In this document: positions 3,578 through 5,763 of the stretch, in pieces
How the letters are laid out: each line of letters starts with the position of its first letter
Position numbering within the stretch: position 1 is the stretch's first letter
Virus record (IMG/VR): IMGVR_UViG_3300020421_000031
Location: 1-49,147 of that record
Length of the DNA: 49,147 nucleotides
DNA from: a virus
Strand: one strand, 5' to 3'
The notes under the pieces: generated by a model
What the model was told of the DNA's origin: nothing
Databases searched by the model: none
What the model saw: the letters and a program-made list of their open reading frames with translations, nothing else
Position numbers and translations under genes: made by a program

Positions 3578-4069
3578 CTAGACTCCTAAGTGATCTTCGG
3601 TAAGTATTAAGAAGTTCATCTGCCTGTCTTCACAATACTCTCGCGCAGCAGACCACTTAGTTTGGTTTTTTGCGTAAGTCAGAGCAGCATTACGATAGGC
3701 AGCAGTTTTTTTGTTTTTGTCATTCGGTGGTTTTGTTTGTTTCTTGGGTTTTACTTCAATAATATATTTTGTGACCTTACCAGACTTTTCGCGAACTTTA
3801 ATGTAGAAGTCAGGAAAGTATCTTCTCACTTTACCATCAGGAGCTCTGTATGGTATAATAACTTCTTCACTACCCCACTGTAAAATGGATGGGTTGTTGT
3901 CACAGAATACCATGAACTTTCGTTCCCACAACGATCTGTAGATGATGTTAGTGGGATTGCCACGATACTTCTGAGGATTTACAGGTTTGTAAATACCAGA
4001 GTATGCCATAAATATAGAAGGACCAACATAGGTATTTAGCGTGTCAATCAACAGCTTTTTGTCTGCCAT
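3578..4069 (-). CDS. 4: gp4 head completion protein
   Basis: The protein has 163 residues; T4 gp4 (gp50/gp65) has 150. It acts at head completion before tail joining and belongs to a nuclease-like fold. Conserved blocks are IIYRSLWERKFM.FCD (about residues 43-58), QWGSEEVIIPY (63-73), DGKVRRYFPDFYIK (77-90) and IIEVKPKKQTKPP (103-115). The PDFY and E-V-K residues sit where a PD-(D/E)XK active site would be. It is the first gene of the minus-strand late operon, with GGAG close to its start. Its first 29 bases overlap the start of the divergent gp54 gene, and the likely gp54 promoter lies inside its coding sequence. Confidence 0.93.
   Translation of the reverse strand: MADKKLLIDTLNTYVGPSIFMAYSGIYKPVNPQKYRGNPTNIIYRSLWERKFMVFCDNNPSILQWGSEEVIIPYRAPDGKVRRYFPDFYIKVREKSGKVTKYIIEVKPKKQTKPPNDKNKKTAAYRNAALTYAKNQTKWSAAREYCEDRQMNFLILTEDHLGV
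4008..4014 (+). promoter_or_regulatory. T4-type late promoter element for gp54
   Basis: ATAAATA lies inside gp4, 27 bases before the GTG at 4041. It matches the core of the T4/cyanophage late promoter -10 element, and no -35 is expected. The longer CATAAATATAG string recurs at about 5638 inside gp51, upstream of gp29, so that copy may be a second late element. Confidence 0.55.
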
Positions 4070-4766
4070 CTCCGCTAGAGGCGGGATGTCATACTCAAAT
4101 AACTACATTGTTGCATTTGAAAATGTGCCAATTAGTTACGCTGGATTGTCGGAAGAAATTGAGTATTTTTGTGATGAAGCACAACTTCCTAACATCAATA
4201 CAGCAACTGGAACTATAAATGGACTTTATACTGGACTTGGTAATATAGACTATCCACACACTAAAGTTTTTACAGAACTTCAGTTAGGATTCATGTTAGA
4301 TGCTGACTTATCTGTGTTAAAATATTTGAACGCATGGTACAACTCTATTTTTATTGAGACTGGTACTAGCGAAAGTAGATCTACCAGAGTAAAATTTAGG
4401 AATGAATACACAGGAACCATAAAAATTACAAAGTCTGAAACTGGTCCAGATTCTACAACCCAAAGAAAACCAATTACATATGTTTTGGAGCAAGCATATC
4501 CATATGCTATTGATTCTGTTCCACTACAGTTTGGTTCTTCTCAGATCACAAAAGTAACAGCACAGTTTAAATATCAAAGACATTATACAGTTGATAGAAA
4601 TATTCGCAATATCAAGGATTCTAATATTCCAGCAAGTGGAGTTTTAGTTGGAGAAGTTGAAATTGGACCAGGAATATTCACACAACAATGGTTGCTTCCA
4701 AATGGAAAAATTGTTGAGAAACGAGACAATAAAGTTGGAACTGGAACACAACCTACAGCCCGCTAA
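4041..4766 (+). CDS. 54: gp54-like baseplate tail-tube initiator
   Basis: The protein has 241 residues from a GTG start and most likely corresponds to T4 gp54 (320 residues). Gp54 sits on gp48 and forms the first tube-like ring for tail tube growth. The N-terminus MSINSFLSAI..RGGMSYSNNYIV has the form of a tube-family opening. The middle (TGLGNIDYPHTKVFTELQL..F, LKYLNAWYNSIF) is typical of gp54/gp19-fold proteins, with a beta strand pair leading to ITKVTAQFKYQRHY. An ATG at 4086 (residue 16) is an alternative start. I prefer 4041 because the extra residues fit the family opening. It diverges from gp4 with a 29-bp overlap. An unrelated tail-tube paralogue cannot be excluded. Confidence 0.7.
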   Translation: MSINSFLSAISARGGMSYSNNYIVAFENVPISYAGLSEEIEYFCDEAQLPNINTATGTINGLYTGLGNIDYPHTKVFTELQLGFMLDADLSVLKYLNAWYNSIFIETGTSESRSTRVKFRNEYTGTIKITKSETGPDSTTQRKPITYVLEQAYPYAIDSVPLQFGSSQITKVTAQFKYQRHYTVDRNIRNIKDSNIPASGVLVGEVEIGPGIFTQQWLLPNGKIVEKRDNKVGTGTQPTAR

Positions 4767-4864: not shown

Positions 4865-5578
4865 ATGGCATTACCACAAGTTGTGCTTCCAACTTATGAG
4901 TTGGAAATTCCGTCTAATGGCAAAAAAATCAAATATCGCCCATTTGTAGTAAAAGAAGAGAAATTACTTCTTCTGGCAATGGAGTCAGAAGATGTGGGTC
5001 AAATTGAAGCAGCAGTAAAACAATTATTGAAAGGTTGTATTCAATCTAGAATTAAAATTGATGATTTAGCAATTTTTGATCTAGAATACATTTTCCTTCA
5101 GATTCGTGCAGTTTCCGTTGGGGAAGTTGTTGATATGAATATTACATGTGAGGATGATGGACAAACTACAGTCCCTTATAAGTTAAACTTGTTAGAAGTT
5201 GAGGTACAGAAACCAGAAGGTCATTCTAACAAAATTATGCTTTCTGATGAAATGGGTATTGTGATGAAATATCCAAAATTTGATACTTTTATCACTGGAT
5301 CGATTATTGGTGAATCTCTAACGGCAGAATCAGTTATTGATGTTATTGCTGGTTGTATTGATCAACTTTTTGACGCTGAAGATGTATATGATAGTTCTAC
5401 TACTACTAAAAAAGAATTTAAAGAATTTTTAGAAAATCTTACCAATAGTCAATTTGAAAAAATTCAAGAATTCTTCCAGAGTTCTCCAAAACTAGAACAT
5501 ACTATTAAAATTACAAATCCCAACACTGGTGTTGAAAATGAAATAGTATTTTCGGGATTATCGTCTTTTTTCGGATAG
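4865..5578 (+). CDS. 26: gp26 baseplate hub assembly protein
   Basis: The protein has 237 residues and belongs to the T4 gp26 family (T4 208 residues), needed to assemble the baseplate hub. The N-terminus LPTYELEIPSNGKKIKYRPF followed by VVKEEKLLLLAMES is the family signature. L..YIFLQIRAVSVGE (about residues 75-92) and the four-strand MGIVMKYP segment are also typical. Its stop (TAG 5576) lies in the middle of a compact -1 frameshift signal, so a fraction of ribosomes could read on into gp51 and make a 299-residue fusion. Bases 5536-5578 overlap the gp51 reading frame. Gp26 and gp51 act in the same step in T4, which fits production from one locus. Confidence 0.88.
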   Translation: MALPQVVLPTYELEIPSNGKKIKYRPFVVKEEKLLLLAMESEDVGQIEAAVKQLLKGCIQSRIKIDDLAIFDLEYIFLQIRAVSVGEVVDMNITCEDDGQTTVPYKLNLLEVEVQKPEGHSNKIMLSDEMGIVMKYPKFDTFITGSIIGESLTAESVIDVIAGCIDQLFDAEDVYDSSTTTKKEFKEFLENLTNSQFEKIQEFFQSSPKLEHTIKITNPNTGVENEIVFSGLSSFFG

Positions 5579-5605
5579 CACTCTTCCACAACACGTTGGA
5601 AGGGT
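5566..5605 (+). promoter_or_regulatory. Predicted -1 programmed ribosomal frameshift signal (gp26 to gp51)
   Basis: The slippery heptamer T TTT TTC spans 5566-5572 in the gp26 frame (codons TTT and TTC, both re-pairing as TTT after a -1 slip). A 7-nt spacer (GGATAGC, containing the gp26 stop) follows. Then a stem-loop has ACTCTTCCA (5580-5588) paired with TGGAAGGGT (5597-5605): 9 bp including one G-U, with an 8-nt loop. Heptamer, spacer and stem are the classical three parts in their usual spacing. The frame entered is exactly the gp51 frame, and it has no ATG, GTG or preceding SD before the conserved gp51 sequence. Confidence 0.8.
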
Positions 5606-5763
5606 ATTATAAAACTAATTTTGCTTTGATGCAGCATCATAAATATAGCTTGAGTGATGTTGAAAATATGATGCCGTTTGAGAGGCAAGTTTATGTTTCT
5701 CTATTGATGCAGCATTTGGAACAAGTTAAACAACAACAAGAAGCGGCAGCTAAACAACGATAA
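5572..5763 (+). CDS. 51: gp51 baseplate hub assembly catalyst, probably made as a gp26-gp51 frameshift fusion
   Basis: Reading in the -1 frame after the heptamer gives 63 residues, with blocks RIALFHNTLEGYYK, NFALMQHHKYSLSDVENM and MPFERQVYVSLLMQHL, then a Gln/Ala-rich tail ending at TAA 5761. The helix-rich MQHHKYSL..ENMMPFER core is the short cyanophage form of T4 gp51, which helps hub assembly and is not kept in the virion. Stops at 5533 and 5539 bound the frame upstream. Between them and the conserved sequence there is no ATG or GTG. A TTG at 5596 or the ATGs at 5629 and 5668 would truncate it and lack an SD. I infer expression through the frameshift. The stop overlaps the gp29 ATG. Confidence 0.75.
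   Translation, partial: RIALFHNTLEGYYKTNFALMQHHKYSLSDVENMMPFERQVYVSLLMQHLEQVKQQQEAAAKQR

Follow-up and report, generated by a model that had tools for sequence, protein, structure and literature searches.

A probable programmed -1 ribosomal frameshift joins gp26 to gp51 in the tail assembly chaperone gene of T4-like phages

The window analysed here is the whole 49,147-nucleotide stretch of DNA from a marine T4-like phage (IMG/VR record IMGVR_UViG_3300020421_000031), and the features of interest in it are listed in Table 1. The product of the gp26 ORF matched PF12322 (E=2.4e-72, 243.6 bits against a curated cut-off of 24.5), and hence belongs to the T4_baseplate family, and also matched phrog_150 (E=2e-79). 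It was the only PF12322 match in the 49-kb record, which is a fragment, and a search of that fragment for a separate, full-length gp51 carrying a gp26-like domain itself found none. The -1 frame at the end of gp26 is open for 63 codons (5572-5760) before a stop at 5761-5763, and its translation was related to phrog_634, 'baseplate hub assembly catalyst' (E=4.1e-28), and could be aligned across 40 sequences (alignment A5). Reading from gp26 into this frame would give a predicted fusion of 299 aa. The -1 stop overlaps the start of the downstream gene (TAATG), the product of which had phrog matches to tape measure and endolysin families. Relatives of that gene are annotated as endolysin, oxygenase-like or late control protein, and its best phrog match is named endolysin. 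With a tail tube gene upstream and a probable tape measure gene downstream, the tail assembly chaperone (TAC) region at 4865-5763 occupies the position of a G/GT-type gene.

Table 1. Features at and around the gp26/gp51 junction of the window.
Feature	Position	Strand	Basis
Tail tube protein gene (upstream neighbour)	4041..4766	+	PF23849 Phage_TTP_2, E=3.4e-90
gp26 ORF, assigned as short tail assembly chaperone (TAC-N), 237 aa	4865..5578	+	PF12322, phrog_150
Weak Shine-Dalgarno-like GGGA, 8 nt ahead of heptamer	5554..5557	+	Anti-SD profile, synonymous null
Slippery heptamer T TTT TTC	5566..5572	+	Identical in 213/218 distinct loci, slippery in 216
-1 frame extension (TAC-C, 'gp51'), 63 codons and stop	5572..5763	+	phrog_634, alignment, T4 gp51 colinearity
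Optional lower helix, 5' arm	5575..5578	+	Fold, pair counts (columns 9-12/41-44)
0-frame stop TAG, one codon past heptamer	5576..5578	+	Same distance in 214/218 loci
Stimulatory hairpin, 5' arm	5580..5588	+	MFE fold, pairing in relatives, selection beyond coding
Stimulatory hairpin, 3' arm	5597..5605	+	MFE fold, pairing in relatives, selection beyond coding
Optional lower helix, 3' arm	5607..5610	+	Fold, pair counts (columns 9-12/41-44)
Downstream gene, probable tape measure protein, 913 aa	5763..8504	+	phrog matches, position

At the junction, the gp26 frame reads ...TCG TCT TTT TTC GGA TAG, and the heptamer is thus in the gp26 phase. A sequence-only reading of this DNA had proposed, on the model of lambda G/GT, that a -1 frameshift connects gp26 with gp51, citing an in-frame heptamer, a 7-nt spacer, a 9-bp stem with an 8-nt loop and a 63-codon gp51-like frame. 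Each of these elements was recovered at the positions in Table 1, the gp51-like character of the frame is borne out by the phrog_634 match and by homology to the C-terminus of T4 gp51, and every sequence test that was run supported the proposed shift. When both strands of the window were searched for in-frame slippery heptamers no more than 60 nt from the end of a long ORF, three were found, and the -1 ORFs following them were of 63 codons (the heptamer at 5566-5572), 9 codons and 4 codons. The TTTTTTC heptamer is over-represented in the window, mostly on the minus strand (25 copies against 16.5 expected, a count reached in 2 of 100 shuffles).

A junction set was assembled from viral contigs and named phages and comprised 218 distinct loci, forming 48 clusters at 75% protein identity; protein queries from Vibrio and Rhizobium phages added just 2 and 1 viral contigs, respectively. 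As the clusters share ancestry, their p-values are not independent and are used as guides only. The heptamer was TTTTTTC at 213 of the 218 loci, TTTTTTG at 2 and TTTTTTT at 1, and a slippery site followed by an open -1 frame, as in TAC frameshifting, was present at 216. Except where a contig ends, the -1 frame in relatives is about 56-65 codons long. Chance is ruled out for the heptamer because of this conservation across 218 distinct loci. Of the 48 clusters, 46 have the standard heptamer, and in every one of these the Phe-Phe pair was encoded by TTT TTC; among the 207 other Phe-Phe pairs in gp26, 10 used these codons. At the standard heptamer the preceding codon (Ser, Asn, Asp or Ala) always ended in T.

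The hairpin of the window (9 bp, 8-nt loop) is part of the MFE structure at -16 kcal/mol, and it begins 7 nt after the heptamer, a proper spacing for a stem-loop of the dnaX/IS type. Its stability gave a z of only -1.9 against dinucleotide shuffles and of -3.56 against synonymous recoding, the latter for the locus identical in sequence to the window (L001). When the same synonymous-codon null was applied to the -1 peptide in 47 clusters, the mean z was -2.98, with p<0.05 in 36 and p<0.01 in 28 of them; the predicted stem was absent from a few relatives in this test (L084, L093, L115, L122 and L129). Folding is stronger than in synonymous recodings of the -1 peptide, and the encoded amino acids by themselves therefore do not account for the stem. 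Along the gene, the mean folding energy was -11.2 kcal/mol exactly at the junction, as compared with about -5 kcal/mol elsewhere.

In the window group (53 relatives), 92% of cells were paired, as against 45-55% when the arms were slid; in the P-SSM2 group the corresponding values were 92% and 24-39%. The stem arms are CACTCTTCCA/TGGAAGGGT or CCCTCT/AGAGGG in the window group, GTATGGCTCA/TGAGTCATAC in the P-SSM2 group and TGTTCTATAATAAT/ATTATTATAGAACA in the S-PM2 group, and different clades thus carry unrelated stem sequences at an identical location. The alignment of junctions suggested in the sequence-only reading was expected to reveal a conserved heptamer, spacer and stem with compensatory changes. 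The heptamer, its phase, the distance to the stop and the location of the hairpin are indeed conserved; true double changes were few (3 pairs in alignment A2 and 2 in A3), and covariation taken alone would be modest evidence for the hairpin. RNAalifold applied to the window-group alignment recovered no more than a core of 5 bp, in which no pair was compensatory, because the register shift of CCCTCT/AGAGGG in one subgroup blurs the alignment, and for this group per-sequence and synonymous-null tests were used in its place.

The Shine-Dalgarno (SD)-like site of the window is weak (-4.1 kcal/mol, p=0.053 under the synonymous-codon null, as judged by the identical L001). Over the 48 clusters, the anti-SD energy peaked at -6.4 kcal/mol against a background of -0.5 kcal/mol, for 8-mers whose first base lies 18 to 12 nt upstream of the heptamer. 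In the P-SSM2 and S-PM2 groups the element is typically GGAGGG, with its end 9 nt upstream of the heptamer, which falls inside the 9-14 nt range known for -1 stimulation (PMC5009743). Part of this sequence is owed to the encoded Glu-Gly; the Glu codon at the site was GAG in 28 of 31 cases, as compared with 29% GAG use in the gene body, and the mean z against synonymous recoding was -1.4. Judged from sequence, the heptamer, hairpin and SD-like element make up a predicted dnaX/IS-like three-part signal in many relatives, with a weak SD component in the window phage.

Phage T4 provides the link between the two proteins. Both T4 gp26 (208 aa, E 8.8e-64) and residues 1-201 of T4 gp51 (249 aa, E=3.9e-52) match PF12322 and are therefore paralogues, and the C-terminus of T4 gp51 is homologous to the -1 extension. 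As gp51 consists of a gp26 domain and the -1-frame piece, the predicted 299-aa fusion is the equivalent of gp51, and gp26 alone is the short form. The fusion is colinear with T4 gp51, but in T4 the two proteins, though of the same family, come from separate, divergently transcribed genes, and the T4 codons are TTC TTT, which are not slippery. A long gp51 encoded elsewhere was found in the two-gene phages T4, Klebsiella 15882-3, 44RR, an Acinetobacter phage, VR20 and EC-F2, and neither the heptamer nor the -1 extension followed gp26 in any of these six. A normal ATG and SD for gp51 combined with a disrupted heptamer had been named in advance as the finding that would count against a frameshift, and this combination occurred only in phages such as T4, with a second complete gp26-like domain fused to the tail. 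Its restriction to phages that encode a full-length gp51 separately is consistent with frameshifting.

The frameshift arrangement was found in Kyanoviridae, a Methylophilales phage, Vibrio phages nt-1 and KVP40-type, Aeromonas phages CC2 and phiWae14, Stenotrophomonas phage Bhz51, and Rhizobium and Sinorhizobium phages. The sites in the Aeromonas phages are AGT TTT TTC GCA TAA (CC2) and GAT TTT TTC GCC TGA (phiWae14), each with a -1 TAC-C, and this arrangement may, by analogy, account for the report that Aeh1 alone lacks gp51 (PMC3037559). In Ackermannviridae (Salmonella phage Marshall and Serratia phage 2050H1), an unannotated -1 TAC-C-like extension follows the gp26 homologue at GAA ATT TTC ATT TAA or CAG GTT TTC ATC TGA, sites that are not canonical X XXY YYZ heptamers. 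Vibrio phage K397 has -1 TAC-C-like sequence after the noncanonical CTT TTC AAG TAA TGG, where an ATG overlaps the stop.

For structural comparison with the TAC-N fold of HK97 gp13, gp26 and the -1 extension were modelled as two separate halves. Residues 1-89 of the gp26 AlphaFold model (pLDDT 87.8) were aligned by VIA-align with the HK97 tail assembly chaperone 2ob9 at Z 6.8 (83 aligned, 3.9 A), a value in the range below 8 that can reflect a common arrangement. The other matches were 3klu YqbN (Z 7.1), 3fgx (Z 6.2) and 5ir0 (Z 4.8), followed by values of 3.6 or less; Foldseek gave E 3.1, and a search for solved structures related by sequence found none. The likeness of the modelled N-terminal part of gp26 to the HK97 chaperone is suggestive, with a Z below the safe level. 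T4 gp51 was reported to be absent from the particle (PMC3004832). The most fitting reading of the pair is as tail assembly chaperones, TAC-N and TAC-NC, that serve the tape measure protein. The sequence-only reading had called them baseplate-hub chaperones, an old T4 label in place of which tail assembly chaperone is preferred.

Programmed -1 ribosomal frameshifting very probably makes two tail assembly chaperones from this one gene, as judged by the sequence evidence. From the anatomy, conservation and homology observed at the junction, we infer the efficiency of the shift, its protein products and their chaperone action. The majority of ribosomes would terminate at the TAG at 5576 and release gp26 (TAC-N, 237 aa). 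Some would pause on the hairpin, assisted in relatives by the internal SD-like site, slip from T TTT TTC to TTT TTT, and read 63 more codons to yield the 299-aa gp26-gp51 fusion (TAC-NC), the T4 gp51 equivalent. The short and fused forms would then help to load the tape measure protein, encoded by the next gene, into the growing tail.

Alternatively, termination at the gp26 stop could be followed by reinitiation there or shortly beyond it (translational coupling), and gp51 would then be a short protein of its own, as database records that annotate it as a separate short gene imply. P-SSM2-type phages have an ATG 2 nt past the gp26 stop that would allow this, and an ATG overlapping the stop or 2 nt beyond it is likewise seen in Vibrio or Rhizobium phages. 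However, the heptamer is equally strict in phages having the ATG, and the SD-like site lies ~24 nt before the P-SSM2-type ATG, too far upstream to serve initiation, though well placed to stimulate a -1 shift. In the window, as the sequence-only reading had observed, neither ATG nor GTG was found ahead of the conserved -1 part, the sole possible start in that frame being a TTG at 5596, at the margin of the stem's 3' arm. No ATG precedes the conserved part at 69 of 80 window-group loci, and at 31 of the 80 the conserved residues are preceded by no ATG, GTG or TTG. Moreover, in the predicted junction peptide (S-F-F-R followed by ISMFYNNLENYYR in S-PM2), the R opens the -1 frame, ahead of any ATG, and it is conserved in at least 90% of the 40-sequence alignment. 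A free 60-aa protein would also have no counterpart in T4, where gp51 is full length. Reinitiation is thus considered improbable.

Slippage of the RNA polymerase rather than the ribosome on the T run at the junction would yield the same fused frame, and transcriptional slippage is known on longer runs of 9 As or Ts (cited in PMC5009743). Here nearly all loci have a run of six T, under the usual length, and the codon phase, the downstream hairpin and the upstream SD-like element are ribosomal features, which makes this explanation still less probable than reinitiation. That the change of frame is a sequencing error or the mark of a decayed gene has a negligible probability: nothing in its favour was found, and it is refuted by the recurrence of the identical arrangement at more than 200 distinct loci, drawn from isolate genomes as well as independent assemblies.

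The sequence-only reading was mistaken in taking the scheme to be undescribed for gp26 and gp51, since T4-like TACs were published in 2022. That study reportedly found frameshifting conserved in several T4-like groups, with genes 26 and 51 as the T4 pair. In the passages that cite it, Vladimirov, Gautam & Davidson 2022 (Virology 566:9-15) is the source for the identification of T4-like TACs (PMC12846349, PMC10885494), and is credited with poly-T frameshift signals in T4-like TAC-N genes (PMC12846349) and with T4-like phages having separate short and fused genes (PMC10885494). The TAC-N/TAC-NC logic, as relayed there, is common to the window phage. A literature search on frameshifting at gp26/gp51 matched papers on unrelated phages only. 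Among the open papers searched, none analysed the hairpin and SD-like element of this junction, nor did the literature search find a paper on cyanophage ribosome profiling. Frameshift use in T4-like phages was thus already proposed in 2022, and the stimulator anatomy and synonymous-codon tests may be the new detail.

Lambda gpG/gpGT and the TACs of long-tailed phages also comprise a short and a frameshifted long product encoded between the tail tube and tape measure genes. The lambda heptamer is G GGA AAG, whereas the window has T TTT TTC and a selected hairpin, to which relatives add an internal SD, and the PF12322 protein is longer and of T4 type. In the E. coli dnaX gene and IS elements, an internal SD lies upstream of the slippery heptamer and a stem-loop downstream of it (PMC5009743), as in many relatives; the window differs from them in its U-type heptamer, weak SD and unrelated gene. 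In Vandenendeviridae/Andersonviridae, the passage on Pseudomonas phage Adele describes a -1 shift on T-rich sequence close to where TAC-N ends at its 3' side, as in the window, but gives the site as GTTTTT, unlike T TTT TTC (PMC12846349).

Cyanophage gp51 was described as lacking the first 200 residues and as ~20% of the length of T4 gp51 (Sullivan et al. 2010, PMC3037559). It appears fragment-like probably because it is the tail of gp26, read in the -1 frame, rather than a gene. In Synechococcus phage ACG-2014j, the -1 extension lies unannotated between gp26 and the next gene. The gp51 annotation should change in hundreds of cyanophage records. The chances are about even that cyanophage TAC genes carry a full dnaX-like programme in which the heptamer and geometry are frozen and the hairpin sequence is replaced by lineage, and that T4-type phages swapped this device for gene duplication. 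Frameshifting and gene duplication would then be alternative routes to the same protein pair, and an abundant marine phage group is offered for testing frameshift stimulators and the ratio of the two chaperones.
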